DNA of 64,000 nucleotides from Roseateles saccharophilus (GTDB lineage: Bacteria > Pseudomonadota > Gammaproteobacteria > Burkholderiales > Burkholderiaceae_C). A model generated the notes under the pieces. That model was not told the DNA's origin. It did no database searches and worked only from the letters and a program-made list of their open reading frames with translations. Numbering within the stretch: position 1 is the stretch's first letter; each line of letters starts with the position of its first letter. The position numbers and the translations under genes were made by a program. Shown piece after piece: positions 48,100 through 64,000 of this stretch. The DNA lies in the NCBI RefSeq assembly GCF_004342485.1, contig NZ_SMBU01000022.1, positions 1-64,000 of the forward strand, written 5' to 3'.

Positions 48100-48905
48100 T
48101 GCACCGTCTCCTCGGCCGGCAGCGGCCCGGTTTTCTTCAGGCATCCGCGGATGCGATCGCCGCGCACGCGCCGTGGGTTGGCCACGAGCAGCAGGGACAG
48201 ATAGCTGAGCTTGGTCCCGCGCAGGTCCAACATGTCGCGGCCGCGCAGCACGCGCTCGTCGGGCGCACCGCAGCGCTCGACGAAGGCGGCTCCGTCCAGC
48301 AGCCCGCGCGCCAGCAGCCAGTCGAGCAGCTCGTCGACGAGGGGCTTGACCTTCAGCAGCACCAGCGTGTCGAAGTCGTCGAGCAGCCGGTCGAGCGCGG
48401 CCACGCCATAGGCAGCGGGCACGATGGCCACCGTGTCGTCCTGCTCAGCCAGCGGCCGGCCCACGCCGGCGCAGGCCGCAGTGAACGCGTTGACGCCGGG
48501 CAGCACCTGGATTTCGACGCGCCCGTCCAACGCGCGCACGGTGCGCGCGAGATGGCCGAAGGTGGCGTAGGTGCTGGCGTCGCCCTCGACGAGGAAGAGC
48601 ACGTCGCGGCCGGCCTGCAGCAACGGCAGCACGGCCTCGGCGGCGCGCAACCAGGCGCGCGACAGCTTCTCGCCGTCATGGGTCATCGGGAACAGCAGGC
48701 AATGGTGCTCGCCCGGCGGCGCCAGGCCCGCGCGCTGCACGATGTCGAAGGCATAGCTCGGAGTCTTCGTGCTTCGCGCCGGATAGGTCCAGACCGTGTC
48801 GCGGCGCTCGAGCTGGGCCCAGGCGGCGCGCGTGATCAGCCCCGGGTCGCCGGGGCCCAGGCTGACGCCGACGAGCCGGCCCATGCGCGTGACGGCACCG
48901 CTCAT
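48096..48905 (-). CDS. cobI: Precorrin-2 / cobalt-factor II C20-methyltransferase
   Basis: A 269-residue SAM methyltransferase beginning MGRLVGVSLGPGDPGLITRA after a short leader, with LVEGDASTYATFGHLAR and LPGVNAFTAACAGVGRPLAE. It methylates C20 early in the corrin pathway. The ATG at 48905 overlaps the cobL stop by 4 bp; a longer in-frame extension upstream is not CobI-like. Confidence 0.93.
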   Translation of the reverse strand: MSGAVTRMGRLVGVSLGPGDPGLITRAAWAQLERRDTVWTYPARSTKTPSYAFDIVQRAGLAPPGEHHCLLFPMTHDGEKLSRAWLRAAEAVLPLLQAGRDVLFLVEGDASTYATFGHLARTVRALDGRVEIQVLPGVNAFTAACAGVGRPLAEQDDTVAIVPAAYGVAALDRLLDDFDTLVLLKVKPLVDELLDWLLARGLLDGAAFVERCGAPDERVLRGRDMLDLRGTKLSYLSLLLVANPRRVRGDRIRGCLKKTGPLPAEETVQ

Positions 48906-50206
48906 CGCGCGCCCTCCTTGGCGGCGCAGACGATCCACACCGGGTTCTCGGCCGCCAGCCGGTGCATGTGCAGGATGGGCTTGCTGCGCGAGGCCTGCAG
49001 CATGACGACGTCCCAGGCCGCGCCGAGCTGCTGCAGCGCCGCGGTCGCCGCCGCGAGGTTCTCCAGCGTCACGAAGTTCATCACGAGCTGGCCGCCCGGC
49101 CGCAGCCGCCGCAGGCACTGCGCGACGAGTTCGGCCAGCTCGCCGCCCGAGCCGCCGATGAAAACGGCGTCCGGGTCCGCCCAGCCGTCCAGCAGCTCGG
49201 GCGCCTTGCCGTGCGCCAGCGTGTGGTTGCTCAGGCCCATCGCGGTGCGGTTGCGCGCGGCGATCGCGATGTCGTCGGCGTTCTTCTCGATCGCGTAGAC
49301 ATGGCCGGCCGGGCACAGCCGCGCGGCCTCCAGGCCGACGGCGCCGGAGCCGGCGCCGATGTCCCAGACGACGCTGTCCTCGCGCAGCTGCAGCCGCGCC
49401 AGCGACACGGCGCGCACCTCATGCTTGGTGATGAGCCCCTTGTCCGGATGGCGCTGCTCGTAGCTGGCGTCGGGCAGACCGAAGCGCACAGGCCGCGCCA
49501 CGGCGGCGCTGCGCCACAGCAGCAGCACGTTGGGGTCGGCGAAGCGCTGCGCGGCAGCCTCGGCCGCACTCAGGCCGGCGACGATGCGCTCGCCGGGCTG
49601 CAGCAGCCGCTCGGCCACGGCAAGCTGGAAGTCGTCGGCCAGGCCTTCGGCGAGCAGCAGCCGCGCGACGCGGTCCGGCGTGTTGGCCGGGCTGGTCAGC
49701 ACGGCCAGGCGCTCGTGGCAGCGCAGCGCCTGGGCCAGGGCATAAAGGCCGTGCCGTGGATCCGCGCCGACGGCCCATTCGCCCGCGTCCTTCGCATGGA
49801 TGCTGACGATCTTCAGCTCCTGCGAGACCAGGCCGACGCGCGCACAGGCGAGCTGGATCGTGGACAGATTGGGCAGCACCTCGATCGCATCGAGGCAGAG
49901 CTGCATCGCCAGATAGCCGGCGATGCCGTGGCAGAGCGGGTCGCCGGTGGCGAGCACGACGCTGCGCCGGCCGGCGGCCTGGGCCGCGCGCACGGTCTCG
50001 GCGACGGCACCCAGGCCGGCGATCTCGTGGCGCTGGGCCTCGGGCGAAAGCTCGGCCTCAAGCAGCGCGAGCGTGCGGCGCGCACCGATGACGACGTCGG
50101 CCTCGGCCAGGCTGCGCAGCGCCGCGGTACCGAGGCTGGCGGCGCCATCGTCGAGCACGCCGACGATGCGGCAGCGCGGCGGACGCGGGTTGGCGGAATC
50201 AGTCAT
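48902..50206 (-). CDS. cobL: Precorrin-6B methylase, CbiE-CbiT fusion
   Basis: A 434-residue two-domain enzyme. Residues about 10-205 are the CbiE C5-methyltransferase (VVLATGDPLCHGIAG, VLPNLSTIQLACARVGL). Residues about 230-425 are the CbiT C15-methyltransferase/decarboxylase with DIGAGSGAVGLEAARL and AIEKN. A fused CobL is common in proteobacteria. It overlaps cbiD by 8 bp and cobI by 4 bp. Confidence 0.94.
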   Translation of the reverse strand: MTDSANPRPPRCRIVGVLDDGAASLGTAALRSLAEADVVIGARRTLALLEAELSPEAQRHEIAGLGAVAETVRAAQAAGRRSVVLATGDPLCHGIAGYLAMQLCLDAIEVLPNLSTIQLACARVGLVSQELKIVSIHAKDAGEWAVGADPRHGLYALAQALRCHERLAVLTSPANTPDRVARLLLAEGLADDFQLAVAERLLQPGERIVAGLSAAEAAAQRFADPNVLLLWRSAAVARPVRFGLPDASYEQRHPDKGLITKHEVRAVSLARLQLREDSVVWDIGAGSGAVGLEAARLCPAGHVYAIEKNADDIAIAARNRTAMGLSNHTLAHGKAPELLDGWADPDAVFIGGSGGELAELVAQCLRRLRPGGQLVMNFVTLENLAAATAALQQLGAAWDVVMLQASRSKPILHMHRLAAENPVWIVCAAKEGAR

Positions 50207-51305
50207 CGGACGAGGCCTCGGCAATCTTGTGTCCATCGAAGTCGCAGACCAGCACATCGAGGCGGAAGCGCCCCGGGTAGCGGCCCATCACGGTGCTGAC
50301 GACCTTGCGCGCCAGCGCGGCGTGGAAGGCGTCGACCAGGCCGAGGGCCTGCATGCGCTCGGCCGCGAAGCGCGCCGTCTCGGCCGCCGCGATCGCGCGG
50401 CATTCTTCGGCCGGTGCGCCGATACCGGCGGCGAGCTCGGCCAGCAGCGCGGTGTCGACCTCGGCGCGGTTCGCGTGCGTGATCGTCTCGCCCTGTGCGA
50501 TCTTGGTCAGCTTGCCAACCATGCCGCCGATGACGACGCGCCGCAGCTTGGCGCGCACCGCCGCGTCGAGCGCATAGCGCAGGAAGTCGCCCATCTGCAC
50601 GAAGCAGGCCTCGGGCAGGCCGGGCAGCTCGGCGATCGCGAACTTCTCGGTGCGCCCGCCCGTCGTCAGCACAACGGTGCCCGCGCCGGTGCTGGCGGCC
50701 ACCTCGACGCCCTGCACGACGCTGGCCCGGTAGGCCGCGGTGCTGTAGGGCTTGACGATGCCGGTCGTGCCGAGGATGGAGATACCGCCGAGGATGCCGA
50801 GCCTTGCGTTCAGCGTCTTCCTCGCCATCTCGATGCCCTGCGGCACCGAGATCGTCACCTCCAGGCCGTCGCGGGCCAGCAGCGCGGCGCCGGCCTCGCG
50901 CACGTTGTCCTCGATGTTGCGGCGGGGCACCGGGTTGATCGCCGGGCCGCCGACCTCCAGGCCCAGGCCGGCCATCGTCACGGTGCCGACGCCGAAGCCG
51001 CCGAGCAGCAGCAAGGCCTCGGCCTGGCCCGGCAGGCGCCGTACGTCGGCGGTGAGGTGGGCCTTGTCGGTGCAGTCCGGGTCGTCGCCCGCGTCCTTGA
51101 TGACCATTGCGTGCGCCGTGCCGGCGTCGCAGCGGCCGTCGTGCACGTCAAAGCGCACGCGCTGGCCGTTCGGTAGCAGCGCCTCGACCGCGTCGGGCAC
51201 GCGGCCCTCGACGAGGCCGAGCACCGCCGCCCGTGCTGCGGCGGCCGAGCAGGCGCCGGTCGTGAAGCCGGTGCGCGTGCCGCGCTTGACAGTCTTCTCC
51301 ATCAT
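50199..51305 (-). CDS. cbiD: Cobalt-precorrin-5B C1-methyltransferase
   Basis: A 368-residue enzyme specific to the cobalt-early pathway. It begins with GTRTGFTTGACSAAAARAA and contains VGTVTMAGLGLEVGGPAINP, GGISILGTTGIVKPYS and a C-terminal FDVHDG/DFDG context. Two ATGs lie in tandem; 51305 overlaps the cobH stop (ATGA). Its presence with cbiG and cbiX and the absence of cobG and cobF argue for the oxygen-independent route. Confidence 0.95.
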   Translation of the reverse strand: MMEKTVKRGTRTGFTTGACSAAAARAAVLGLVEGRVPDAVEALLPNGQRVRFDVHDGRCDAGTAHAMVIKDAGDDPDCTDKAHLTADVRRLPGQAEALLLLGGFGVGTVTMAGLGLEVGGPAINPVPRRNIEDNVREAGAALLARDGLEVTISVPQGIEMARKTLNARLGILGGISILGTTGIVKPYSTAAYRASVVQGVEVAASTGAGTVVLTTGGRTEKFAIAELPGLPEACFVQMGDFLRYALDAAVRAKLRRVVIGGMVGKLTKIAQGETITHANRAEVDTALLAELAAGIGAPAEECRAIAAAETARFAAERMQALGLVDAFHAALARKVVSTVMGRYPGRFRLDVLVCDFDGHKIAEASSDD

Positions 51306-52009
51306 GAGGACGTCCTTTCCTCCTCGCGCTCGCGCGTCTCGGCCAGACCCAGCAGCGCGTGCAGCGCCGCGACGACCAGCGTCGAGCCGCCCTTGCGGCC
51401 GTCGATGACGATCCAGGGCACCTCTGTCAGCTCGGCGGCCAGCGCCTTGGACTCGGCCGCCGACACGAAGCCGACCGGCAGGCCGACGATCAGCGCGGGC
51501 CGCGCGCCCGCTTCGCGCACCAGCCGCACCAGCTCGATCAGCGCCGTTGGCGCGTTGCCGATGCCGACGATGGCACCGTCCAGCAGGCCCAGGCGCTGCG
51601 CCTTGCGCATCGCCTGCACGGCACGCGTCGTGTCCGCGGCCTGGGCCGCAGCGATGACGTCCGCGTCGGCGATGAAATGGTGCGTCGCCAGCCCGAAATG
51701 CGCGAGGCGCGGCGCCGACAGGCCGACGCAGATCATCTCCACGTCGGCGACGATGCGGCTGCGCCGCGAGCGCAGCGCCGCGATGCCAGCCGCGACGGCA
51801 CCGGGGTGAAAGCGCGTGAGGCCGTTGAAGTCGAAGTCGGCGTTCGCATGGATCATGCGCCGCACAACGGGCCACTGCTCGGCACTGTAGGCATGCGGCC
51901 CGGCCTCGCGGTCGATGGTCGCGAAGCTGTCGTGCTCGATGGCCTGGCCAGCGCGCGTGAGCTGCTCAGTGACCGGCGTGAGCATGGTCGTGGTGGTCGC
52001 TAGGGTCAT
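51302..52009 (-). CDS. cobH: Precorrin-8X / cobalt-precorrin-8 methylmutase
   Basis: Moves the methyl group from C11 to C12 to give cobyrinate. Up to 235 residues with the active-site His in VVRRMIHANADFDF, VGIGNAPTALIELVRL and GLPVGFVSAAESKALAAE. The start is uncertain: ATG 52009 overlaps the His-rich tail of cbiX by 44 bp, while ATG 51985 overlaps by 20 bp. Neither has a good ribosome site, so coupling to cbiX translation is likely. Confidence 0.92.
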   Translation of the reverse strand: MTLATTTTMLTPVTEQLTRAGQAIEHDSFATIDREAGPHAYSAEQWPVVRRMIHANADFDFNGLTRFHPGAVAAGIAALRSRRSRIVADVEMICVGLSAPRLAHFGLATHHFIADADVIAAAQAADTTRAVQAMRKAQRLGLLDGAIVGIGNAPTALIELVRLVREAGARPALIVGLPVGFVSAAESKALAAELTEVPWIVIDGRKGGSTLVVAALHALLGLAETREREEERTSS

Positions 52010-52838
52010 GATGGACGTGGTCGTGGCCGTGGTGGTGGCCCTGCCAGCGCGCGGCCGCGTCGTCGACAGGCACGGCGGCCAGCGTGCCGCGCAGCAGGCC
52101 GCCGACGCGCTCGGACAGCAATGCGGTGACCTCGGGCTCGAAGCCGAAGTAGGAGCCCAGCGCGAAGCGCACCTGCGGGTACTGCTGCCGCAGGTGCTCG
52201 ACCTGGCGGCCGATGCGCGCGATCAGCGTGCCGGTGAACAGGTAGTAAGGCAGGACGACGATCTGGCGCATGCCCAACGCCACCTGGCGCTGCACGACGC
52301 GCTCGAGTCGAGGCCAGGCGATGCCCGTGAAGGCCAGGTCCACCAGCTCGTGATCGGCCTCCTCGAACAGCCAGCGCGCCATGCGCGCCATCTCGCCATT
52401 GGCCTCGCGGCTGGAGGAGCCGCGGCCCAGCAGCACGATGCCGGTGCCGCTGGGATCGGGCATGTCCAGCGACTGCATGCAGCCCTTGAGCCGGCGCTTC
52501 AGGATCGCCAGGATGGGCTCGCAAACACCCAGGTGCGGCGCATAGTCGAAACGCACGCCCGGGTGGCGCTGGCGTGCACGGGCGATGTGCGACGGGATCT
52601 CGATGTTGACGTGGCCGGCCGCATTGAGGATCAGCGGCACGACGACGACGCGACGCGATCCGCGCGCCGCGAGGTCGAGTCCTTGCTCGACCTCGACGTC
52701 GGCGAACTCGATGAAACAAAGTTCCGTGCGCCACTGCGGATGGCGCTCGCGCCACTGCTCGGCGAAGCGCTCGATCTCGTCGTTGCCGGTCTTCTCACGC
52801 GAGCCGTGGCCCACTAGTAGGATGGTGTCCGGGTTCAT
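51966..52838 (-). CDS. cbiX: Sirohydrochlorin cobaltochelatase (long CbiX) with His-rich tail
   Basis: Inserts cobalt into sirohydrochlorin. The 290-residue protein has two CbiX domains: TILLVGHGSREKTGNDEI at the start and GIVLLGRGSSSREANGEM in the middle, with LNAAGHVNIEIPSHIA and VVLPYYLFTG as metal-side segments. The last 22 or so residues (from WQGHHHGHDHVHHDP) contain about 11 histidines, likely a cobalt store or donor site. The ATG overlaps the cobM stop. Confidence 0.93.
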   Translation of the reverse strand: MNPDTILLVGHGSREKTGNDEIERFAEQWRERHPQWRTELCFIEFADVEVEQGLDLAARGSRRVVVVPLILNAAGHVNIEIPSHIARARQRHPGVRFDYAPHLGVCEPILAILKRRLKGCMQSLDMPDPSGTGIVLLGRGSSSREANGEMARMARWLFEEADHELVDLAFTGIAWPRLERVVQRQVALGMRQIVVLPYYLFTGTLIARIGRQVEHLRQQYPQVRFALGSYFGFEPEVTALLSERVGGLLRGTLAAVPVDDAAARWQGHHHGHDHVHHDPSDHHDHAHAGH

Positions 52839-53629
52839 GCGCTGGCCTTTCTGAAGCGATGGGTGAATGAGGCGTCGTAGAGCCTGGACTTGGCGAGCTC
52901 GGGCCAGCCACGGGCGCCGAGCGTGGGGCTGGCGATGACCATGGCCTGGCTGACGATGCCGGCCTCGCGGCACCGCTGCTTGATCGTCGCGAGCGTGCCG
53001 CGCACGATGCGCTCCTCGCCGGGCCAACTGGCCTTGTGCACGACGAGGACCGGCGCGTCGTCGGGCCAGCCGGCCTCGCGCAGCCCGACCTCGACCTTTT
53101 GCAGCAGCGTGATGGACAGGAAGATGCACAGCGTGCAGCGATGTGCTGCCAGCTCGCGCAGCGATTCGCCGGCCGGCATCGGTGTGCGGCCCTCGACGCG
53201 CGTGAAGATCGTCGTCTGCGTGACCTCCGGCAGCGTGAAGCTCTCCACCGCCGCCGCGGCCGAGGCCATCGCTGACGACACGCCGGGAACCACGGCGACC
53301 GGGATGCCGGCCGCGTCCAGCGGCTGCACCAGCTCGATCAGCGTGCCGTACAGCGCCGGGTCGCCGGTCTGAAGACGCAGCACGACTTCGTGGCGCGCCG
53401 CGCGTTCGATCAGCCAAGCACTCATCTGCTCGAGCGTCATGTCCTTGCTGTCGGCGATGTCGCAGCTGGCAGGCGCCCAGCGCATCGCTGCCTCGCTGAC
53501 CAGCGAGCCCGCGTAGAGGATGGCGCCGGCGCGCTCGACCAGGCCGCGCCCCTTGACGGTGATGAGGTCGGGGTCGCCGGGGCCCGCGCCAACGAACCAG
53601 ACGGTGCCGTACTTCGTCGCCGTGCTCAT
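52835..53629 (-). CDS. cobM: Precorrin-4 / cobalt-precorrin-4 C11-methyltransferase
   Basis: A 264-residue SAM methyltransferase beginning GTVWFVGAGPGDPDLITVKG, with RLQTGDPALYGTLIE, VPGVSSAMASAAAAVESFTL and TTIFTRVEGRTPMP. It is the first gene of the operon, starting about 260 bp after the riboswitch B12 box. In-frame codons upstream of 53629 belong to the leader and are not used. Confidence 0.94.
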   Translation of the reverse strand: MSTATKYGTVWFVGAGPGDPDLITVKGRGLVERAGAILYAGSLVSEAAMRWAPASCDIADSKDMTLEQMSAWLIERAARHEVVLRLQTGDPALYGTLIELVQPLDAAGIPVAVVPGVSSAMASAAAAVESFTLPEVTQTTIFTRVEGRTPMPAGESLRELAAHRCTLCIFLSITLLQKVEVGLREAGWPDDAPVLVVHKASWPGEERIVRGTLATIKQRCREAGIVSQAMVIASPTLGARGWPELAKSRLYDASFTHRFRKASA

Positions 53630-53886
53630 GTGCGCCCGCCCGGGGGCGCGGCAAAAAGTGCCGTCTTGAACGGTCTTGCCTGGCACAGGTCGACAACGCG
53701 ACCCGACACGGAGCGCCCGCACCGATGCCCCATGGCCGGCACGGCATTCGACAGGGCCGGCCCACGGGCCGCCTTCGCCGCAAACATATTCATCAGGAAA
53801 CTCACCAGACCGAACGGCCGCCTGCTTCCCCGCAGGAGTCCGCACAAAGGCATGCCGCGTCTTCGACGCCGCACACCCACCTCGTT

Positions 53887-54095
53887 GGCCGGTCTCCGGG
53901 CTGGCGAACATCTCGCGTGCCCCCTTCCCACGAGCATCACGCTCGCAGTGGGTGTCCTGCACACGACGAAGCCAAGGCTTCGTTCGCTTACCGTTGCGGG
54001 GGCAGCTCAGGTTGGATCTGTTCCGACGGAACGCGTCTTCCTGATTCCCGTTTCACTGCATTGGCCGAATAGCCGCTGCGAGCACCAACGTGAGG
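53887..54095 (-). ncRNA. Cobalamin riboswitch
   Basis: Read on the minus strand, the leader shows in order GTGAAACGGGAATC (near 54040-54055), then GCCCCCGCAACGGTAA (near 53990-54006), then the B12 box GCCAGCCCGGAGACCGGCC (53887-53905). These are the conserved blocks of the AdoCbl riboswitch. It lies about 260 bases before cobM and should shut the whole cobalamin operon when the coenzyme is plentiful. Confidence 0.92.
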
Positions 54096-54376
54096 AGATC
54101 ATAGCTTCAGGCTCGCGGAGGTTTCGGCGCCTAGGCGGCGGGCAAGTGCGGGCTGCATGTTGGCAGCCTCGCTGCCGGTAGCCCCGAAACTGCGAAAGCC
54201 AACCAACCTAAACTCATCCCCGCCCGGCGGGTTCCTGCTCCCTGCCCCCATCCTCAGCTCGTTGTTAGGTCGGTGGCTCAGATTCGCGTCGGTGCGGACG
54301 GCGGTGCAGCAATTCCTTGACGTCGCTTTGCGCAAGCGACCCATGCTGATAGGCTAGTTTGGCAAATGGTGACTTG

Positions 54377-54928
54377 ATGAGCGAAATCACCGAATTGTTG
54401 AGGCGCGTCAACACGGGCGACACGAGCGCACGCGATTCGCTGTTCGCGTTGCTCTACCAGGATTTGCGAGAGCTCGCTCGGTCACGTTTGCGCAGGAGTG
54501 AGACCATCACACTGCTGGATACCACGTCGCTTGTACACGAGTCCTACCTGCGCTTCCTGAACGCGCGTGAACTCGACTTCGGTGGCCGTGGCAAGTTTTT
54601 CGCCTTCGCAGCCAGCGTGATGCGTTCCATCATCGTCGACGAGTTGCGCAAGCGCCATGCCCAGCGGCGCGGTGGCGTCGCCGTGCATGTCGAACTCGAC
54701 GAGGAGTTGGCGGCCTCGCTCGCGCACGACGACATGCAGGTCGTGCGCGTCCATGAGGCGTTGGACGAACTGGCCACGCTCGATCCGCGCTTGACGCAGG
54801 TAGTCGAGATGCGGTTCTTTGCCGGTCTCAGCGAGGAGGAAATTGCGGACGCTCTGGGTGTCACTGATCGTACGGTGCGTCGTGACTGGGACAAGGCGCG
54901 CACGCTGCTCTATGGCGCACTCAAGTAG
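54377..54928 (+). CDS. ECF-type sigma factor of the Ser/Thr-kinase-linked group
   Basis: A 183-residue sigma factor with region 2 LLYQDLRELARSRLRRSETI, SLVHESYLRFL and FAFAASVMRSIIVDELRKR, and region 4 VEMRFFAGLSEEEIADALGV, RTVRRDWDKARTLL. It resembles the ECF-like group (TIGR02999 type) that sits beside protein kinases; its activity is probably controlled by the kinase gene 48 bp downstream. The start MSEITELL at 54377 is chosen over a TTG 18 bp earlier. Confidence 0.9.
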   Translation: MSEITELLRRVNTGDTSARDSLFALLYQDLRELARSRLRRSETITLLDTTSLVHESYLRFLNARELDFGGRGKFFAFAASVMRSIIVDELRKRHAQRRGGVAVHVELDEELAASLAHDDMQVVRVHEALDELATLDPRLTQVVEMRFFAGLSEEEIADALGVTDRTVRRDWDKARTLLYGALK

Positions 54929-54976
54929 CACCCCTGCAGGGGCGGCGATGCCCTGCCGTCTGCGCCCTGGCCCGCC

Positions 54977-57958
54977 ATGAGGCTGGACGCCGCCAACTGG
55001 CCCGTGCTGTCGGTCCTCTTCGACCAGGGACTGGATCTGCCGGCACCCGCGCGCGCCTGCTGGCTCGATGGCCTTGAGCCCGGGCAGCTTGAGCTGCGGC
55101 CCCTGCTGGAGCGCCTGCTGGCCGATCACTCGGAGATGCAGACGCGGAATTTCTTGGAGACACTGCCGCGCGTCTCCCTCGCTGAAGACCCTATCGATCC
55201 AATCGCAGCGCCTGGCCCCAGCGTTGGCCCCTACCGCCTTTTGCGCGAGATCGGGCGCGGTGGCATGGGCAGCGTCTGGCTGGCCGAACGGCATGACGGC
55301 CTGCTGAAGCGGCCCGTGGCGCTGAAGCTCCCGCATCCGGGACTCGCGACCTGCACCTTTTCTGAGCGTTTGGAGCGCGAGCGCGATATCCTCGCGTCGC
55401 TGGCCCATCCGCACATCGCCCGGCTTTACGACGCCGGCGTGAGTGCCGATGGCCAGCCTTACATCGCGCTCGAGTACGTCGATGGTCAGGCGATCACCGA
55501 GGCCTGCGACCTGCGGCGGCTCGGGCTGCGCGAGCGGATCGGGCTGTTCATGCAGGTGCTTGACGCGGTTCAGCACGCGCATGCGCATCTGGTGCTGCAT
55601 CGCGACCTGAAGCCGTCGAATGTGCTGGTCGATACACAGGCTCAGGTGCGGCTACTTGACTTCGGACTCGCCAAGCTCATGGTCGAAGGTCAGGGTGCAG
55701 CGAGCGAGCTGACACTCGACGCAGGTCAAGCGCTGACGCCCGACTACGCGTCGCCCGAGCAGATCCTGGGTAAGCCCTTGGGCACGGCGAGCGACGTCTA
55801 CTCGCTGGGCGTGCTGCTCTATGAGTTGTTGGCAGGGGTCCGGCCCTACCGACTGCTGCGGCCAGAGGGCGTATCGCTCGCCCAGGCGCTGCAGTCCATC
55901 AACGTGTCGCGGCCGAGTGCTGTGGTCACGCAGGGCGCCGCGGCGGCTCTCGGCATGACGGCCAGACAGTTGGCACGCGCGCTGCACGGCGACCTTGACA
56001 CGATCATCCTGACGGCGCTGGCCCATGACGTCCCACGGCGCTATCCAAGCGCCGAAGCCCTGGGCGCGGACCTGGCGCGCTTCCTCGCGGGCAAGCCGGT
56101 GCTGGCTCGGCCCGAGGGCGCCTGGTACGTGGCGAAAAAGTTCATCGCCCGCCATCGCTGGGCCATGGGCTCGGGCTTGCTGGCGGCGACGGTCCTGACC
56201 GCAACCTCGGCCGTTGCGCTTTGGCAGGCCAGCGTCGCGCGTGAGCAGGCCGAAACAGCGCGTGCGGTGCAGGGCTTCCTAGAGGACATGCTCAAGCCCA
56301 ACTCGCAGCGGCAAGCCGACCCGGTCAAGGCGCGCGAAGCGACGGCGCGCCAGCTGCTCGACCTCGCGGCGCAGCGCATAGACGCCAGCCTCGATACGGC
56401 GCCCCAAGCCAAGCTGAGGGTGCTCGACATCATCTCCCGCATGTACACGGACTTCCAGCTCCAGGCGTCGTCGGCGCACGCCCTGGAGCGCAAGCTCGCC
56501 TTGGAGCGAAAGCTGTACGCGCCCGGCGACGCGCGTCTGGTGGCGACGCTGTCTGATCTCGCAGACAGGGTGCGGTCCGACGACCGCGCGCGGGCGGCCA
56601 GCCTGCTGAGCGAGGCGGTCGCGATCGTCGATCAGCGCCGCGACGTCGACCCGGTGGTCAGCGCGGTGCTGCTGCGGCGCCAGTCCAACCTGCTGGAAAC
56701 GAGCGACAAGCCCCGGGCGCTCGAACTCGCACGGCACGCCGTGACCCAGTTGCGCGGACTGCACAATCCCGAGGAGCTTATCGAGTCGCTGATGGCGCAG
56801 GGCTCCCTCGAAGGCAGGGTCGGCCACTCCGCGCAGTCGATCGCGGTACTGGAAGAGGCCTTGGCGCTGAGCCGCACGCAAGTTGAACTTAGGGCTTTGT
56901 ACGCCGCGCGGCTCGGGGCCTATCTGGCGGAGGCACAGTATCAAGCGCAGCAGCCTGCCGCGGCGGAGGCCAGCTATCGACAGGCCTTTGCCGACGCTCG
57001 CCGCTATGCGGGTGACGACTCCCGGGACAGCCTACAGACCGAAAGGCGACTGGGCGAATTCCTGCGCTTGACTGGGCGGCCTGCGCAAGCCATCGAGGTG
57101 CTCGAGGATGCTCAGTTGCGCGCGCGCCGCGTCCGGGTGGCGGAGTGGGAATATGCGGTCACGGTGGCGTTTCTAGGCAGTGCCGAGGACGGCTATGGCC
57201 GCCTGGAGGAAGCATCGCGTGCGATAGAGCCCTTGCTCCATCAGCCGGGATACGCGCCCCAACTGCGCGCTCAATGGCTGACCACGCTGGCGCGAGTGAA
57301 TCTGCAGCTCGGGCATTTCGCCAAGGCGCACGAAGCGCTTGATGAGGCCGCCGCCAGCCGAACCAATAGCGCCATGGCCCCGGGCGTGCTGAACGCCTAC
57401 GTGAGCACCCGTGCCAGGTTGCTGCTGGCCGAGGGCCGCGTGGACGAGGCGCGCACATGGCTTGATCAGTTTTCCGTCACGCCGCCGACGGCCGAGAAGC
57501 TGCCCGATTCGTGGCTGCTCGCAACAACGGCGGCGGCCGAGGTCGCGCTTGCATCGGGCGATGCGGCGGCGGCCCTCGAACAAGCCCATGCGGTGAGCGC
57601 CCGTCTTGCTGCCGACCCACAGCGTGAATACCGTCGGTTCGAAGAGTTGCGCGCAGCCCTGGTCGAAGGCAAGGCATTGGCGGCGCTGTCGCGCTGCCCG
57701 CTGGCAATGCCCGTACTTCAGCGGGCGCTGGACATTGCCAAGGCCGCCCTCGACCCACAGCTCAGCCCGCTGCTGGCCGATGTGCAGATCGCGCTTGCGT
57801 CCTGCGAGCTGGACATGGGTGCTCGCGAGCGCGCCGCCGCGTTGCTTGCCGAAGCGCGCGCGGTACATGCCCGCCAGACCGACTTGGGGCCCCAGTACCG
57901 CCAACCGTTGGAGCGACTCGCGGCGCGGCTGCACGCACCGCAAGCTGCGGCGCACTGA
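54977..57958 (+). CDS. Membrane Ser/Thr protein kinase with TPR-like sensor
   Basis: A 993-residue protein. A short N-terminal region precedes the kinase at about 84-345: IGRGGMGSVWLAERHDG, the ATP Lys in VALKLPH, HRDLKPSNVLVD, LLDFGLAKL and DYASPEQI. One membrane helix lies near 395-415 (MGSGLLAATVLTATSAVALW). The remaining 570 residues are helical, with repeats of TPR type (LARHAVTQLRG, VLEEALALSRTQ, AEASYRQAFADARRYAG). Probable control kinase for the ECF sigma factor upstream. Confidence 0.92.
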   Translation: MRLDAANWPVLSVLFDQGLDLPAPARACWLDGLEPGQLELRPLLERLLADHSEMQTRNFLETLPRVSLAEDPIDPIAAPGPSVGPYRLLREIGRGGMGSVWLAERHDGLLKRPVALKLPHPGLATCTFSERLERERDILASLAHPHIARLYDAGVSADGQPYIALEYVDGQAITEACDLRRLGLRERIGLFMQVLDAVQHAHAHLVLHRDLKPSNVLVDTQAQVRLLDFGLAKLMVEGQGAASELTLDAGQALTPDYASPEQILGKPLGTASDVYSLGVLLYELLAGVRPYRLLRPEGVSLAQALQSINVSRPSAVVTQGAAAALGMTARQLARALHGDLDTIILTALAHDVPRRYPSAEALGADLARFLAGKPVLARPEGAWYVAKKFIARHRWAMGSGLLAATVLTATSAVALWQASVAREQAETARAVQGFLEDMLKPNSQRQADPVKAREATARQLLDLAAQRIDASLDTAPQAKLRVLDIISRMYTDFQLQASSAHALERKLALERKLYAPGDARLVATLSDLADRVRSDDRARAASLLSEAVAIVDQRRDVDPVVSAVLLRRQSNLLETSDKPRALELARHAVTQLRGLHNPEELIESLMAQGSLEGRVGHSAQSIAVLEEALALSRTQVELRALYAARLGAYLAEAQYQAQQPAAAEASYRQAFADARRYAGDDSRDSLQTERRLGEFLRLTGRPAQAIEVLEDAQLRARRVRVAEWEYAVTVAFLGSAEDGYGRLEEASRAIEPLLHQPGYAPQLRAQWLTTLARVNLQLGHFAKAHEALDEAAASRTNSAMAPGVLNAYVSTRARLLLAEGRVDEARTWLDQFSVTPPTAEKLPDSWLLATTAAAEVALASGDAAAALEQAHAVSARLAADPQREYRRFEELRAALVEGKALAALSRCPLAMPVLQRALDIAKAALDPQLSPLLADVQIALASCELDMGARERAAALLAEARAVHARQTDLGPQYRQPLERLAARLHAPQAAAH

Positions 57959-57984: not shown

Positions 57985-58290
57985 TTCGCCGTGCGCGCCG
58001 ACGAGACGCGCGTGCGGGTGTTCGATGGCGCCGATATTGCCAGCCACGCGTGCAGCTACGACGCGGGCGTGCAGATCGAGGACCCCGGGGCACGTCGACG
58101 CGCTGGAGCAGTACGAACGCCGTGCGCGCTGACACCGCGGTGTCGACCGGTCTCTTGCGCGGCGCCGGCTGCTTCGAAGCTGCTGGCGAAGGCCGCCGAG
58201 CGAGGCGAGAACCTGGGCTCCATCACCGCGGCGCTGCTGCGGCTGCTCGACCGCTACGAGGCGTCGGCGCTGCGGGCGGCCTCTTCGGCG
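57985..58290 (+). pseudogene. IS21-family transposase IstA, C-terminal remnant
   Basis: One frame gives VRADETRVRVFDGADIASHA then YDAGVQIEDP, a second HVDALEQYERRAR, and the first again LLAKAAERGENLGSITAALL followed by RLLDRYEASALRAA. These are consecutive pieces of the IstA C-terminus with at least two frameshifts. No istB or terminal repeats remain. It abuts the headless PEP-CTERM gene. Confidence 0.85.
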
Positions 58291-58380
58291 CCAAAGCTGC
58301 TCAACAACGTTGGTCGCTGCTCAGTCCAGCATGACCACGAGCTGCTCGCCGTGCAGTCCCGACCGCGAACCCGCGCCGAA

Positions 58381-58920
58381 ATGGATTTCGCAGGTCTGAC
58401 GACGTACTCGGTCTCGCTTGCCGGCAAGCTGGCGGCCAATGATCAAGGCTCGGCCTACGATTCGTGGCAGTTGGTGACCGATCTGGGAAACGGCGAAATC
58501 GGAAAGTCGGGCTATTTGTTTGGCAACGGCCCCTATGCACAGACCAAGGGGTACGTGGGCGACCCCTTCGGTACTTATCGCCAGACTGTGTTTCTGCAGA
58601 CTGGGTCTGCAACCCTGCTTCAAATCTCGCTGAAAGGCTTCGCCGTAGGTCAGTACTACATCGGTTCAGGCACGCCCTACGCCTCGTTCGGCTTGGACCA
58701 TTCGCTGTATTGGTCGGGCATCGACAGCGTGTCGATCAACGGCACGCCGCAGGCCGGCTACACGGTCAGTTCCGAGTCGGGGGGCAACTATGCGCAATCC
58801 TTCGTGCCGACGGGTGCGGCGGTACCGGAACCCGCCACCTGGGCGTTGTCGCTTGTCGGTTTGTGCGCGTTGATCGTGGGGGTCGGGCGATCGCGACATG
58901 CCGATGTTCCAGAAAAGTGA
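58381..58920 (+). pseudogene. PEP-CTERM protein lacking its N-terminal signal
   Basis: The last 179 residues from MDFAGLTTYSVSLAGKLA onward end with VPEPATWALSLVGLCALIVG and a basic RSRHA tail, the PEP-CTERM sorting signal for exosortase. The body looks like a beta-rich secreted protein (repeated Gly/Ser/Tyr strands). No signal peptide is present; the sequence upstream is IS21 debris, so the start has been lost. The frame is open, but export would not occur. Confidence 0.8.
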
Positions 58921-58921
58921 A

Positions 58922-59806
58922 TCAGAGTCCCTTAAGGCTTGCGCGGCAGCGGAGGCCCCCAATCAGTGCGTCGGTCGGGTTCGGCACGTCCATATGCACC
59001 TGAAACGTTCCACTGGCTGCGTCGATGACCTTGTCGACCTGGGTTACGACTGCGTTGCGCAGATCCTGCGCCGGCTGTTCTACGAAGACGTCGCCACGCA
59101 TGCCGATCTTTACCTTGGGGTAGAGGGACGCTGACAGCAGGAGCTTCACGCGGAGCGGGTTGACTTGCGCCAGCTTGAGGATGTAGGGCTTGTTTTCGCC
59201 GACCTCCGCAAGCTCCCCTGCATGCAAGACCTGATCGACGACGACGCCGTCGATCGGGCTTTGCATGAACCGTTGACCGAGCTGCGCCGCGGCATAGGCC
59301 AGCTCGAGTTTCGCGACTATGCGGGCCTCATTGGCAATGACCGCGTCGGCCTGAGCTATCGCATATTCGCTGGCTGCGTCGTCACGATCCTGGACCGAGA
59401 TGTAGTTGCTCTGAGCCAGGTCGGTTCGCCTTCGCAGCTTGTTCGACGCAAACTCCATCCGACTCGTCGCGGACTTGAGCGGCCCCTCCATCTGTGCTTT
59501 GAACCGGGCCAGGTCCACTGCTGCGCGCTCGACGCTCGAGACCAGGGTCACCAGGGGGGTGCCGTGCCGGACGATGCCGCCACGCTCCGCGTGGACGCGC
59601 TCGATCAGGGCGGTGACTGGACTGCGAATCTCCAACGTCAGTGAAGGTTCCAGCAGACAATCAAAATCGCCCATGCGTGCGGCGGCGTTCGCTGCGCCCA
59701 TCGGTGTGGCCAGGCCAACCATCGTGGCCAGCGCGAGCACCGGCAACCGCAGCTGGCGGCCGGCATCTGGAATCTTTTGCGTTGCGGGCGATGGAGACTT
59801 GTTCAT
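58922..59806 (-). CDS. Periplasmic adaptor (HlyD/RND membrane-fusion family)
   Basis: A 294-residue adaptor with a signal peptide or anchor near residues 18-42 (LRLPVLALATMVGLATPMGA). A lipoyl-type beta domain (LEIRSPVTALIERVHAERGG) flanks a coiled-coil hairpin (about 95-170), then QSPIDGVVVDQVLHAGELAE and a beta barrel with KIGMRGDVFVEQPA. It is shorter than typical HlyD and has no adjacent RND or ABC pump gene. It overlaps the SecA-like gene by 4 bp, so its partner is probably encoded in the same operon. Confidence 0.85.
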   Translation of the reverse strand: MNKSPSPATQKIPDAGRQLRLPVLALATMVGLATPMGAANAAARMGDFDCLLEPSLTLEIRSPVTALIERVHAERGGIVRHGTPLVTLVSSVERAAVDLARFKAQMEGPLKSATSRMEFASNKLRRRTDLAQSNYISVQDRDDAASEYAIAQADAVIANEARIVAKLELAYAAAQLGQRFMQSPIDGVVVDQVLHAGELAEVGENKPYILKLAQVNPLRVKLLLSASLYPKVKIGMRGDVFVEQPAQDLRNAVVTQVDKVIDAASGTFQVHMDVPNPTDALIGGLRCRASLKGL

Positions 59807-61839
59807 TCCGCGACTCCCGTGAAAGCCAGCAGTGCCAGCAGTTGTTGATCCTGCTTCACCGTGAGGCTGCGCTGGCGCTCAGCGGCGCGCTGTGCTCGGT
59901 GCTGGGTGATTCGGCGCAACCAGCCGACGACCGGTTGGGGTGAGGGGCCGATGGGCCAAATCCTGCGGACCCAGGCGGCCTCGCGGGGGGCATGCATTCC
60001 GACCTGCTCGTCCTCCAGTGACGTGATCGATCGGCACGATCCCGGATCTCCCTGGCGCGCGCAACGCCCTAAGAGCTGGCGGTCGATGCGCTTGGACTCG
60101 TGCCATTCGGTCAGCACCACGTGCAAGCCGCCGGACTCGACAACGGCCGGCTCCAGCGCGATGTCGGTGCCACGTCCGGCCATGTCGGTGCAGACCGTGA
60201 CGGCGCCGCGGCGCCCAGCCCGAGCGACCAGTTCGGCTTCATTGGCGTCGTTCAATGCGTCCAACACGCGGTGGGCGATTTCGGCGGTCTCCAGCGCCTG
60301 ACTCAATGTGCGCGACGAGGCGATGGAGGCGGTTCCGACCAGCACCGCCTGCCCCGCGGCAAGCCGCAGCCGAATTTCGCGCACGACTGCGGCGTTTCTC
60401 GACGCGCAATCCGGCCAGAGCTGGGGCGGCAGCGTCCGGCGACGGCATGGCCGGTTCGGCGCCACCCGTTCGGTCTGCAGCCCGTAGCTTGTACGGAGTT
60501 CCGGGGCGACTTCGCGCAGAGTTCCGCTCATGCCGGCCAGTCGCAAATACCGCGTGAAGAAGCGCTGGCTGGTGATTCGGGCTAGGGTGTTGTTCGTCCC
60601 GCTCGGGGTCAGGCCTTCCTTGGTTTCGACGAGCTGATGCAACCCCTGCTCCCAGCTGCGATCTGGCAGCAAGCGGCCCGTCGACTCGTCGACGATGACG
60701 ACCCGGCCCTCGCGCACGATGTAGTGCCGGTCGCGATGCAGCAGGTGCAGAGCTCGCAAGGCCTGGCTCATGATCCGCTCGCGTGCCCAGGGTAGGGCCC
60801 AGACCGGCTTGACCTCGTCCGACGCGCTCTGGACTGCTTCATGGGCATGGTCATGCAGTCGTTCCCGACCGATGTCGGTCAGCTGGATCTCGCGCGTTGC
60901 GGTTCGATGCCTGAATTCCTCGCCGTGGCGCATGCCCGCGGCCAAGTCGAGCAAGTCGCGGTAGATCGAATCGTTGGCCGCCGGGTCCATTGCTGACGCG
61001 ATGACCATGGGTGTGCGTCCTTCGTCAATCAGGACGCTGTCAGCCTCGTCGACGATTGCGAAATGAAGTCCCCGTAGGCGCACGAGGTTTCCGCTCGCCG
61101 ACGACCGCCAGTAAGGCTGCATGGCCAGTTGCGCTGGGCTGCGCGCCTCGCGCACCGACATTCGATCCCGGAGGTAATCGAACACGAGCTCCTTGTTCGT
61201 GCAATAGGTGATCGGCTGCGAATACGCCGACGGACGCTGCGCCTGCGGGACGCCGGCATGAACGAGCCCAACCCCAAGACCGAAGTAGTCGAAGAGAGGT
61301 TGCATCGCGCGTGCATCTCGCTCGGCCAGGTAATCGTTGACTGTCACCACATGCGTTGGCACGCCGGCCATGGCCGACACGCATGCCGCCAGGGCCGCAG
61401 CCAGAGTTTTGCCCTCGCCGGTGTCCAACTCGACCAGACGGCCCCGCAACAGACAAACCGCTGCATCGCGCTGTGGTGGATGCGGCGTCCAACCGAGCAC
61501 GCGGTGCGCGGCGACACAGGTGGCGGCCAGCGCGGTCGAGGTCGCTGCGACGTTGGCGGCATCGCCGTGCCTGAAGGCAGGACCGGCGGCGGCATGTGCA
61601 ACAGCTCGCAGCGCATCGTCGCTCCACCGATTGAGGCTCGCGATTTCCGAGTTCAGCCGCGCTGCGATCTCCTTGTCCTTGCCGGGCCACCTCGGGAGAC
61701 GCGTTGCCCAGGATCGCGCCCATCGATCCAGAGTCGCCTCTTGGTTCGCACGCCGTTCGGGGAACGGTGTCCGCGCCAGCTCGATGCCAGGGGGGGGCCA
61801 CCCTCCGCGCAGTTCATCTGCAATCGTGTCGCCCGTCAT
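59803..61839 (-). CDS. SecA-like ATPase, shortened
   Basis: A 678-residue relative of SecA. Landmarks in order are LVELDTGEGKTLAAAL (Walker A), TVNDYLAERDA, TYCTNKELVFDYLRDRM, IVDEADSVLIDEGRTPMVIA (DEAD box), HYIVREGRVVIVDESTGRLL, LAGMSGTLREV, VCTDMAGRGTDIAL and RCARQGDPGSCRS (arginine finger). Protein-crosslinking-type insertion is present, but the C-terminal scaffold and zinc region of SecA (about 200 residues) are absent. Housekeeping SecA is about 900 residues, so this is a specialised paralogue. The ATG at 61839 overlaps the protease stop. Confidence 0.9.
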   Translation of the reverse strand: MTGDTIADELRGGWPPPGIELARTPFPERRANQEATLDRWARSWATRLPRWPGKDKEIAARLNSEIASLNRWSDDALRAVAHAAAGPAFRHGDAANVAATSTALAATCVAAHRVLGWTPHPPQRDAAVCLLRGRLVELDTGEGKTLAAALAACVSAMAGVPTHVVTVNDYLAERDARAMQPLFDYFGLGVGLVHAGVPQAQRPSAYSQPITYCTNKELVFDYLRDRMSVREARSPAQLAMQPYWRSSASGNLVRLRGLHFAIVDEADSVLIDEGRTPMVIASAMDPAANDSIYRDLLDLAAGMRHGEEFRHRTATREIQLTDIGRERLHDHAHEAVQSASDEVKPVWALPWARERIMSQALRALHLLHRDRHYIVREGRVVIVDESTGRLLPDRSWEQGLHQLVETKEGLTPSGTNNTLARITSQRFFTRYLRLAGMSGTLREVAPELRTSYGLQTERVAPNRPCRRRTLPPQLWPDCASRNAAVVREIRLRLAAGQAVLVGTASIASSRTLSQALETAEIAHRVLDALNDANEAELVARAGRRGAVTVCTDMAGRGTDIALEPAVVESGGLHVVLTEWHESKRIDRQLLGRCARQGDPGSCRSITSLEDEQVGMHAPREAAWVRRIWPIGPSPQPVVGWLRRITQHRAQRAAERQRSLTVKQDQQLLALLAFTGVAE

Positions 61840-63983
61840 GCCTTGAACTCCGACAGGAATAGCACGCGAAGGCCGTGCCACAGACGCCAGGCCAGCGGGC
61901 GCCACCGGTGCTCGAAGCGAACGCTCACGCGGCTGCCGACGAAGCGATAGGGGAACGCTGCTGGCAGAGCCAGCTCGTACTCGAAGTGGGACAGCAATGA
62001 GCGGCGGCCGTCGCCGGCACGCGGATCGGTCGGCGAATCGCCACCGCTTGAACGTCCCAGAGCTGCACTCGGCAGATCGTTCGATGCCGAGGGCAGGGCG
62101 CGAACAATCCTGGCCGACCAGGAGCGTCCCGGCTCGGCCGCGAGACGCAGTTCGACATGCCGTGCGTCGTCGCGCACGAATTCCGCCTCGGACTGATCAA
62201 CGACCACGCGCGCAAGCGGCGCCTGGTCCGGGATCACATACCCCAGGATTTCACCCTGCCGGACACGGCGCCCGAGCAGGTCGTCGCCAGCGCTCAGCGA
62301 GAGCCGGCCCGCCGTCTGTGTGCGCACGTTGAGCGCCGCGACGCGATCCAGGGCATCCCTGTTCTGGGCCATCTGGCTGACGAGTGCACTGCGTAAAGGT
62401 TCGGCCCGAACCGGATCGATCAGCAAGGTGGCCTGGTAGCGTGCGCGCGCGCCCTCCTCGCGGGCCTGAAGCTGTTGCGCATGCGCGGCGAGCGCGGGGT
62501 CGGCCAGAGTCACGACTCGTTGTCCAGCCTCAACCCATGAGGCATCCGCATCGTGCACGCCGACGATGAAGCCCGCTTGAGGGGCCCGCAGCAGAGCGCG
62601 GTCAGGCAGCCACAGCACGCCTTCGGCCTGCGTGTGATGGGGCAGCGGTACCGCAAGCACAGCGACCAGAGCCAGTGCTGCCGCAGACAGCCGCCAGTGC
62701 AGGCCTGGAACGCGGCTCTCGCCAAGCATATTTCGCAGGGCCACCGTGCCGCGCCACAGAGGCAGCCCGATATTCGCCCCCACGCTCCATATTGCAATGA
62801 AGGTGCCGACGGTCGGATACCGGACGGATACGTAGAGCGCGATCGACGAGGTCACGACCAGCCGGTACGCGAACGAGAGAGGCGCATAGGCCACGAACCA
62901 AGGGGCCTCGCCCGCTGCGCGGACCGGCGATGTTGAGGCACGCTGCAACACGATGCGCTCGAACAGCCAACCCCAGTAGCGGGTCGAGCGCTGTGCAAGG
63001 TTCGGGATGGCCAGCGCATCCGCCAGGATGAAATAGCCGTCGTAGCGCATCAGCGGGTTGGCATTCAAGATCACGGTTCCGACGCTCGCAAGTACTGCGA
63101 CGTCGTACGCAATCGCCTTGGCGAGGCCCGGTTCCATCCAGAGCCATAGATAAAACGCGGCCGCACCGATCACGAGCTCCACTGTGATGCCTGCGGCGCC
63201 AACCAGCACGCGATCGCGCCGGCGCGCAAACACCCAAGCGCTGGACGTGTCGACGTACGGCACCGGTACGAAGAGCAGGAACATCAGCCCCATCTCGTGC
63301 ACGGCCCCGCCGCGAAGCTTGCAGGCGACGCCATGCCCGATCTCGTGCAGCAGTTTCAACAGCGGGTAGATCAGGCCCATCAGCAGCAGACTGTCGAGGG
63401 CCAGGCTGCGCTCGACGAAATTCCGGCTTAGCTCCGTCCAGTGCAACAGCGCCAGCCCAAACGCGGGAGCCACCCACGCGATCCACAGCAGTGCAGCGTT
63501 TCGACCCAGGCCGGGCGAGAGGCCCCGGGTCAGGCGATCGAGGAAGCGATCGGGATCGACCAGCGACCAGCGCATCGACAGCGGATTCATGTACCGCTGC
63601 CAGCGTCGCTGCGCGGCTTGTACACGCCGGCGCCGGGCCTGTTCGTCCAGATCCGGTAGCCCGTCACTGCCCAGCAAATCCAATGCATGCAATTGACCCA
63701 GCAACTGCAGCAACTCGTCCTGGCTCGGAGCTTCCTCGTCCTCCGCCAACAGCCCGTGCCAGACCTCGTGGAGTGATCGGTGGCCGTCCAGGCGGCCGAT
63801 CACGCGGCCCGCGCGCTGATCGAACCGGTGGTAGCGTCCATTCAGGCGATCCTCGAGCACGCACCAAGGCTGGCCGCGGTATTCGATGACATGCGCACGA
63901 ATGTGATCGCGCAGCCGTGGCGACAGCGCCTGGGCTCGATGCCAATGGCCGGCCTCGGGCAGCGGGGGCGTGACGTTGCTCAT
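61836..63983 (-). CDS. PqqD-like / M50 metalloprotease / lipoyl-domain membrane protein
   Basis: A 715-residue fusion. Residues about 25-110 are PqqD-like (VLEDRLNGRYHRFDQRAGRV). Six or more helices follow, with the zinc site LLHEIGHGVACKL and NPLMRYDGYFILAD, the site-2-protease pattern. After about residue 450 come a membrane helix and a HlyD-type lipoyl/barrel section (LRAPQAGFIVGVHDADASWV, RVRQGEILGYVIPDQAPLA). Such proteins occur in peptide (RiPP) processing and export clusters. ATG at 63983 is used; a GTG 15 bp earlier is possible. It heads the operon as far as visible; more may lie beyond the window. Confidence 0.87.
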   Translation of the reverse strand: MSNVTPPLPEAGHWHRAQALSPRLRDHIRAHVIEYRGQPWCVLEDRLNGRYHRFDQRAGRVIGRLDGHRSLHEVWHGLLAEDEEAPSQDELLQLLGQLHALDLLGSDGLPDLDEQARRRRVQAAQRRWQRYMNPLSMRWSLVDPDRFLDRLTRGLSPGLGRNAALLWIAWVAPAFGLALLHWTELSRNFVERSLALDSLLLMGLIYPLLKLLHEIGHGVACKLRGGAVHEMGLMFLLFVPVPYVDTSSAWVFARRRDRVLVGAAGITVELVIGAAAFYLWLWMEPGLAKAIAYDVAVLASVGTVILNANPLMRYDGYFILADALAIPNLAQRSTRYWGWLFERIVLQRASTSPVRAAGEAPWFVAYAPLSFAYRLVVTSSIALYVSVRYPTVGTFIAIWSVGANIGLPLWRGTVALRNMLGESRVPGLHWRLSAAALALVAVLAVPLPHHTQAEGVLWLPDRALLRAPQAGFIVGVHDADASWVEAGQRVVTLADPALAAHAQQLQAREEGARARYQATLLIDPVRAEPLRSALVSQMAQNRDALDRVAALNVRTQTAGRLSLSAGDDLLGRRVRQGEILGYVIPDQAPLARVVVDQSEAEFVRDDARHVELRLAAEPGRSWSARIVRALPSASNDLPSAALGRSSGGDSPTDPRAGDGRRSLLSHFEYELALPAAFPYRFVGSRVSVRFEHRWRPLAWRLWHGLRVLFLSEFKA

Positions 63984-64000
63984 AAGCCCCAACTCCACGC

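Follow-up and report, generated by a model that had tools for sequence, protein, structure and literature searches.

A four-gene operon of Roseateles saccharophilus with a PqqD-M50 protease and a SecA-like ATPase travels with genes for giant LEPR-XLL proteins and probably exports them

Introduction

To our knowledge, the route by which diderm bacteria export proteins of 5,000–19,000 residues is largely open, and a locus at the end of a 64,000-nucleotide stretch of the Roseateles saccharophilus genome (contig NZ_SMBU01000022.1, positions 1 to 64,000; hereafter the window) raises the question of whether an operon conserved beside the genes for such proteins serves to move them. The operon lies on the minus strand and encodes a GAF-HlyD adaptor, a fusion of a PqqD-like domain, an M50 intramembrane metalloprotease and a HlyD-like half (the M50 protein), a SecA-like ATPase and a separate HlyD-type periplasmic adaptor. 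An original prediction, made from the letters of the window, had seen in the last three genes a possible new system for the export of a processed peptide. Neither half of that claim survives in its first form: the gene set has been reported before, and a giant surface protein with an LEPR-XLL leader fits the locus better than a processed peptide does.

As a gene set, the operon corresponds to the secondary SecA_DEAD locus with type I secretion system-like proteins that was described in the main text of an earlier report, where its biological role was left unknown (Kamneva, Poudel and Ward 2015, PMC4452313). According to that text the locus comprises the same four families, namely a SecA_DEAD protein without the wing/scaffold region, M50, HlyD/biotin_lipoyl and GAF-HlyD, and in Methylobacterium extorquens AM1 (META1p2402-2399) these stand in the same order as in the window (PMC4452313). 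Likewise, the window's operon has a second SecA_DEAD protein that lacks most of SecA_SW and belongs to a clade apart from housekeeping SecA, with M50, HlyD and GAF-HlyD genes co-located. The operon is thus a new member of a known locus type. The terms giant, adhesin, cadherin and RTX are all absent from the main text of the report (PMC4452313). LEPR-XLL itself receives two passing mentions in the open-licence literature, with no exporter assigned in the passages concerned (PMC10868602, PMC9611531), and we found no paper in the open-licence PMC literature that links it to this locus or that treats the leader dialects, SecA-less sister loci or pseudo-ATPase forms considered below. These, together with the leader motif, the cargo and the PqqD domain, are what the present comparison of sequences would add.

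Results

Giant LEPR-XLL proteins travel with the operon

Upstream of the M50 gene, on the same strand and past the edge of the window, the contig continues with the GAF-HlyD gene, then a gene for a small protein of 209–253 amino acids, and then one for a giant of 3753 amino acids (Table 1). Over the 3155 residues of the giant that were scanned, RHS repeats, DUF7619 and CARDB exceed their cut-offs, with cohesin (23.8 vs 24.1 bits) and PPC just under theirs; as the cohesin score falls so little short, and as a region close to the giant's end looks by eye like a dockerin, a cohesin–dockerin surface tether is conceivable. The N-terminus of the giant matches the NCBIfam LEPR-XLL model (NF012209, 'LEPR-8K') at 23.0 bits, over the cut-off of 17 (on L054:2-3703). 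Five giants were scanned with this model; the one from the window's genome and two others pass, and the remaining two either score under the cut-off or have no N-terminal match listed. The giants beside these operons start with a basic segment followed by LE[PQ]R.LLSAD. A second segment, resembling W..[DN][FW][VL], was noticed at the C-terminus of 20 of 49 giants and 5 of 274 other proteins, by a pattern set post hoc, after many of these sequences had been inspected (the segment lies at L004:9523-9700 and, for giants in L035-L052 and L102-L174, in the final 80 residues); it is possibly a second signal or an assembly motif.

The distribution of LEPR-XLL proteins follows that of the operon. In a first set of 149 genomes, the window's own included, a SecA search listed 38 operon-type places in 23 genomes; 37 of these listed matches were analysed (G016:C209 was left out). 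At E ≤ 1e-3, LEPR-XLL is found in 22 of the 23 operon genomes and in 0 of the 126 others (Fisher p 2e-25), and at the looser curated cut-off in 22 of 23 versus 9 of 126; the sole operon genome without it, G140, is 84% complete. Physical linkage tells the same story: at 22 of the 37 operons the contig carries the body of an LEPR gene (list at E ≤ 0.1) no more than 12 kb away, in all 22 cases on the same strand. Furthermore, an open reading frame (ORF) of at least 1300 amino acids, counted stop to stop on either strand, occurs in 27 of the 37 operon regions and in 2 of 20 other 19.5-kb stretches (p 5e-6), which come from some of the same genomes and were hand-picked at round positions rather than randomly generated.

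A second set of 299 genomes, drawn evenly from the phylum and sharing at least 12 genomes (the window's own included) with the first, was searched for the M50 alignment, LEPR and the SecA-like protein. Its genomes divide into those whose best M50 match is at least 434 bits (tier 1, 33 genomes), those without tier 1 whose best match is 276–375 bits (tier 2, 38 genomes) and the rest, among which genomes with weaker M50 matches are counted. By a hand tally at E ≤ 0.01, LEPR occurs in 30 of 33 tier-1 genomes, 12 of 38 tier-2-only genomes and 1 of the 228 with neither, that single match being a 64-residue frame. For 42 of 71 M50 genomes against 1 of 228, Fisher's test gives p 8e-31; because the genomes are related, such p-values overstate their independence. 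In a third set, the genomes behind 24 of the 80 best M50 loci described below, LEPR passes the cut-off in 23 of the 23 searched, including those with Omnitrophota, Desulfobulbaceae and Nitrospira titles, some of the frames being short (86–180 residues). The longest LEPR frames reach 14,414 amino acids among the relatives and 19,427 in the phylum sample. Taken with the matched leader variants described below, co-occurrence and same-strand linkage make it very probable that the LEPR giants are the cargo of the operon, which would then transport them.

The operon has four coupled genes and is conserved

Within the window, the M50, SecA-like and HlyD genes are all read from the minus strand, and each start overlaps the preceding stop in an ATGA; the chaining of these three genes by 4-bp overlaps is as originally predicted. 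The unit is larger than three genes, since the stop of the GAF-HlyD gene overlaps the start of the M50 gene in the same manner, and the operon therefore has four genes. Genes in this high-GC DNA were called with codon scoring, and between the stop of the giant and that of the HlyD gene no gap left by the called genes is wider than about 30 bases. Hence, ORFs inside other frames aside, there is no room at the window's locus for a separate small precursor gene. A conserved small ORF or a radical-SAM gene upstream of the M50 gene had been suggested as a thing to look for; the former has no gap to occupy, and no radical-SAM enzyme is among the three upstream proteins scanned with Pfam.

The expectation that the gene set would recur in other genomes was borne out. 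In 36 of the 37 loci the GAF-HlyD, M50 and SecA-like genes follow one another on a single strand (at L065 their order differs), and the fourth gene was recognised directly after SecA in 28 of 37. When GTDB contigs were scanned with the M50 alignment, at least 585 relatives were confirmed, and among the best 80 of these loci, all from other genomes, a SecA-like ORF stands alongside the M50 gene in 75; two of the remaining five stop at a contig or locus end right after M50. The record titles of the 75 SecA-bearing loci name alpha-, beta-, gamma- and deltaproteobacteria and Nitrospira, and a locus titled Omnitrophota (L135) has GAF-HlyD and M50 without a SecA-like ORF. Planctomycetota, in which the locus was first reported, lie outside these samples. 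Consecutive genes in 36 of 37 loci and a SecA-like gene with M50 in 75 of 80 argue that the operon is not a product of chance.

Table 1. Coordinates of the operon, its neighbouring giant gene and the apparent pseudo-ATPase relatives
Feature	Position	Strand	Remarks
HlyD/RND_mfp-type periplasmic adaptor	58922..59806	minus	294 aa, ATG at 59806; TIGR01730 98.9 bits vs cut-off 94.9
ATGA overlap, SecA stop / HlyD start	59803..59806	minus	literal sequence
SecA-like ATPase	59803..61839	minus	678 aa, ATG at 61839; C-terminal wing/scaffold part missing
Walker A (GEGK) of SecA-like protein	61408..61419	minus	invariant in 22 aligned members
ATGA overlap, M50 stop / SecA start	61836..61839	minus	literal sequence
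PqqD-M50-HlyD fusion protein	61836..63983	minus	715 aa from ATG at 63983
HEIGH zinc-site motif, intramembrane protease	63333..63347	minus	residues 218-222; both histidines and the glutamate invariant in 27 aligned sequences
PqqD/RRE-like domain of M50 protein	63672..63944	minus	about residues 19-109 of the 720-aa ORF; Pfam, PDB 3g2b, AF2 model
ATGA overlap, GAF-HlyD stop / M50 start	63980..63983	minus	literal sequence
GAF-HlyD adaptor gene, last 21 bases	63980..64000	minus	whole gene C22 63980-65911 (L004:6981-8912), beyond the window
Giant RHS-repeat protein	C22 66522-77783	minus (same as operon)	3753 aa; start codon and length taken from the coordinates
Apparent pseudo-ATPases	L131:11820-14072 (Seongchinamella unica); L264:10666-12690; L265:3949-5943		frames of 665-751 aa, stop to stop

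Several other genes of the neighbourhood deserve mention. The small protein between the giant and the operon (L004:8864-9625) has a PEP-CTERM-like end by eye and no Pfam match. On the other side, directly downstream of the operon, a convergent gene at 57991-58920 ends 2 bases from the HlyD stop and encodes a PEP-CTERM protein (PF07589, 22.6 bits vs cut-off 20.7). Farther along, at 54359-57958, lie an extracytoplasmic function (ECF) sigma factor (TIGR02999 over cut-off) and, after it, a Ser/Thr kinase that carries TPR repeats, possibly a regulatory pair, and at about 48900-53960 on the minus strand there are ORFs that, to judge from their sequence, resemble a cobalamin (cbi/cob) biosynthesis cluster.

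The leader variant follows the M50 clade

It is informative to examine the LEPR leaders in light of the two M50 tiers. No SecA-like ORF (E ≤ 1e-5) is found at any of 20 tier-2 loci (L182-L201), all of which have M50 and one or two HlyD-type genes; 16 of them share a homologous large protein, and 11 share a family of about 500–650 amino acids at the position taken elsewhere by TolC/OEP. Two tier-1 loci, L262 and L263, are also without a SecA-like ORF. Leaders were compared at 40 of the 63 LEPR sites listed in the phylum sample (20 from genomes with a SecA-like gene and 20 from genomes then thought to be without one), of which one, a weak match in a 64-residue frame (L228), was dropped as spurious. 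Tier-1 leaders mostly read LE.R.LLS[AGT][DE], including those of the SecA-less genomes G309 and G417, and tier-2-only leaders mostly read LEPR.[LM][LF]D[AG]A; in short form, LExRxLLSAD stands against LEPRxxFDGA. A serine after R.LL is present in 23 of 25 tier-1 and 0 of 14 tier-2 leaders (p 8e-9); the two tier-1 exceptions (L213, L221) belong to genomes in which M50 of both tiers is present, which is also true of several non-exceptions. The leader variant therefore follows the M50 clade and is linked with M50, not with SecA. Such a pattern would be expected if it were the M50/PqqD protein that reads the leader and perhaps cuts it.

A PqqD-like domain, a metalloprotease and a HlyD half in one protein

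The composition first proposed for the M50 protein is upheld by domain matches and invariant zinc-site residues. A Pfam PqqD match at E ≤ 0.1 lies in the N-terminal region of 24 of 26 family members, and the family profile of this region matches the solved PqqD structure 3g2b (E 9.4e-8) and also 5sxy. Homology to PqqD and to the recognition elements of ribosomally synthesized and post-translationally modified peptides (RiPPs) is thus found at the level of the family, the window's own member alone scoring 18.1 bits, under the Pfam cut-off of 23.4. Its M50 match is similarly low (20.8 bits vs cut-off 27.2), and the motifs HEIGH (HExxH) and NPLMRYDG (NP..RYDGY aspartate) supply residues H218, E219, H222 and D320, which are invariant in the 27 aligned sequences. 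The remaining half matches HlyD_3 (E 5.5e-7). An AlphaFold2 model of the protein (mean predicted local distance difference test score (pLDDT) 87, predicted template modelling score (pTM) 0.66) shows a small N-terminal strand–helix region, a helical membrane part and the HlyD half. The Foldseek matches listed are MacA/MexA-type adaptors (E ~1e-10); it is thus by sequence that the PqqD domain is assigned.

The best curated relative of the M50 protein is the daptide protease NF041824 (E 5.6e-47 over residues 28–422), and with the PqqD domain this would suit the RiPP-like peptide processing and export first proposed. However, the score of 160.7 bits is well under the equivalog cut-off of 300, and the neighbours of the operon are large proteins and adaptors, with the window's locus closed to a small gene. 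The same holds in comparison with the intramembrane metalloproteases of daptides and of YydH/LiaK epipeptides, which resemble the present protein as M50 relatives and differ from it in that it falls below the cut-off, carries a fused HlyD half and has giant proteins rather than ribosomal peptides for neighbours. We consider the RiPP-like explanation disfavoured to the point of being very improbable.

The SecA-like ATPase is a separate, trimmed clade

SecA_DEAD, PP_bind and P-loop matches over the cut-offs are found on the SecA-like protein of the window, and a Pfam search of it gives no SecA_SW match. Across the family the chain ends 65–85 residues past motif VI (27 of the 36 sequences with the pattern), compared with 315 in this genome's housekeeping SecA; hence most of the scaffold/wing part is missing, as the original prediction had it. 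In a tree, 36 SecA-like proteins and seven housekeeping SecA form separate clades (support 1.0, branch 1.06; one wrong housekeeping ORF, from L034, and two divergent SecA-like sequences were left out). The residues of GEGK, DEAD, GRGTD and motif VI are invariant in 22 aligned members, the intact protein of the window among them, and by pattern Walker A, DEAD and GRGT are together present in 35 of 36 and 66 of 72 SecA-like ORFs. Retention of the ATPase residues is therefore true of the window's protein and of these members, but not of the loci L131, L264 and L265, where the motifs are lost.

A second SecA homologue in the genome recalls the accessory SecA2 systems of Gram-positive bacteria, and the curated SecA2 models do match, at 337.7–409.6 bits. 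These scores are far under all four cut-offs (725–1100), on which membership of SecA2 fails; the present protein also differs in its shorter C-terminus, in its operon with adaptors and M50, and in its diderm hosts.

A different reading would leave the inner-membrane step to SecYEG: the giants would cross there, the SecA-like protein would act in the manner of SecA2 beside housekeeping SecA, and M50 would only trim the leader and anchor the adaptors for the outer-membrane step. The model of the SecA-like protein (pLDDT 83) indeed folds like SecA, with a best TM score of 0.75 to the SecY-engaged 6itc and a match to SecA-N68, a C-terminal truncation; the preprotein-binding domain is kept, and SecA-less versions of the locus would simply use housekeeping SecA. 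Set against this is the early end of the family, about 80 residues past motif VI: the part of SecA that is missing here holds the two-helix finger and the wing. In addition, LEPR leaders are overall less hydrophobic than the N-termini of the operons' HlyD proteins (12-residue maximum 0.47–2.07, n = 39, vs 0.76–2.63, n = 31), a weak difference with overlapping ranges. The SecYEG route strikes us as unlikely, yet as the most serious of the alternatives.

Adaptors, an outer-membrane partner and two further explanations

The third gene of the window is an adaptor, as proposed, with an RND_mfp-type match over the cut-off. In relatives, OEP/TolC accounts for five of the ten neighbour genes scanned, lying between the giant and GAF-HlyD in L038, L040, L053 and L055 and adjoining GAF-HlyD in L042; the genes scanned at the locus of the window itself include none. 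In one relative (L037:11714-12535) a SapC gene (PF07277, E 7e-74) lies between the giant and GAF-HlyD. No ABC, RND or MFS inner-membrane pump is found among the Pfam-scanned genes at the locus, the rest of the genome lying outside the scan. It had been argued that, with no pump, the SecA-like ATPase is the only evident energy source; its first half holds among the scanned genes, whereas the SecA-less loci and the motif-less SecA-like proteins tell against the second.

These features invite comparison with type I secretion and tripartite efflux, which the locus resembles in its HlyD-type adaptors, in the OEP/TolC of several relatives and in large repeat proteins as cargo. The HlyD-type membrane fusion protein of type I secretion is present; the ABC motor of the inner membrane is absent from the scanned genes of the locus, which has instead the PqqD-M50 protein, the SecA-like ATPase and a candidate signal that is N-terminal.

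RND_mfp-type adaptors and the GAF match of the upstream adaptor, a weak one (19.3 bits vs cut-off 22.4), could also speak for small-molecule efflux or for envelope sensing through a GAF regulator, in either case with no link to the giants. That explanation is hard to credit: it has no place for the co-occurrence with LEPR, the same-strand linkage or the variation of the leader by M50 clade, and there is no pump among the genes scanned. It is more plausible, though still improbable, that the locus is a sorting or anchoring system with an exosortase- or sortase-like logic, in which M50 cuts the leader for surface attachment or release and transport takes another route. The conserved intramembrane protease would fit this, as would the PEP-CTERM protein downstream of the operon and, next to the giant, a small protein that resembles PEP-CTERM (with matches under the cut-off in L035 and L036, and judged by eye in the genome of the window). 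Sorting of this kind leaves unexplained the conserved set of adaptors, the TolC genes at several loci and the SecA motor.

Discussion

We propose that the operon would build an envelope-spanning machine for the export of giant surface proteins. The PqqD domain of the M50 protein would bind the LEPR leader, by analogy with RiPP recognition elements, which bind leader peptides, and the intramembrane protease would clip the leader close to the LLSAD/FDGA step. Having kept its motor and preprotein-binding domains, the SecA-like ATPase would feed the long unfolded chain into the membrane part of M50 or into SecYEG, either of which may be the inner-membrane pore, and transport would presumably run outwards. 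The HlyD half of M50, the GAF-HlyD protein and the separate HlyD protein would form a periplasmic duct to a TolC-type pore. The SecA-like motor would be an optional add-on, perhaps for long cargo, the SecA-less versions having mostly shorter LEPR proteins. For this mechanism as a whole we would give a probability of roughly 0.45–0.5.

A number of observations weigh against it. Neither co-occurrence nor synteny demonstrates that the giants are transported or that their leader is bound or cut. LEPR was not detected in G140, G150, G182 and G225 although they carry the system, nor at E ≤ 0.01 in 26 of the 38 tier-2-only genomes, and at 15 of the 37 operons no LEPR gene lies closer than 12 kb (8 of these 15 lie on contigs shorter than 60 kb). 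Conversely, nine relatives without the SecA-like operon pass the LEPR cut-off, with weak E-values of 0.002–0.05 (one, G104, has a tier-2 M50), as did one of 14 controls, Deinobacterium chartae, in a first search, against 0 of 14 in two later ones; the SecA search of the 149 genomes would not list very divergent copies. Divergent SecA-like ORFs are present in G150, G158 and G217, the last of which keeps Walker A and B in a truncated ORF (L266).

The role of the motor is likewise called into question. In L131, L264 and L265 the SecA-like ORF keeps a long open frame without Walker A or GRGT by pattern; for L264 and L265, alignment to the profile also has other residues in place of the motor motifs, L131 being judged by pattern only, and all three are apparent pseudo-ATPases. 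With these three motif-less proteins, and with all 20 tier-2 loci and L262 and L263 lacking a SecA-like ORF, the motor step is not general. The longest LEPR frame per genome has a median of 7186 amino acids where a SecA-like gene is present (n = 28) and 3368 where it is not (n = 14; p 0.005), in a comparison of stop-to-stop frames that is uncorrected for kinship and includes giants cut by contig ends; this suggests that the motor serves long cargo.

In light of these points, it is with some hesitation that we suggest the loci may represent a diderm secretion class of their own. Such a class would be characterized by a RiPP-type leader-binding intramembrane protease, HlyD and TolC proteins and two leader dialects, without an ABC transporter; some lineages would have a trimmed SecA motor and a few a decayed, non-ATPase SecA, and the cargo would range from thousands to nearly twenty thousand residues.

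Whatever the details of the mechanism, a little-noticed gene set is now tied to giant proteins, and this provides candidates for the signal, its receptor, the protease, the duct and the motor, each of which is testable. The main text of the 2015 report gives no cargo for the locus (PMC4452313); the operon travels with the genes for some of the largest bacterial proteins and probably exports them.

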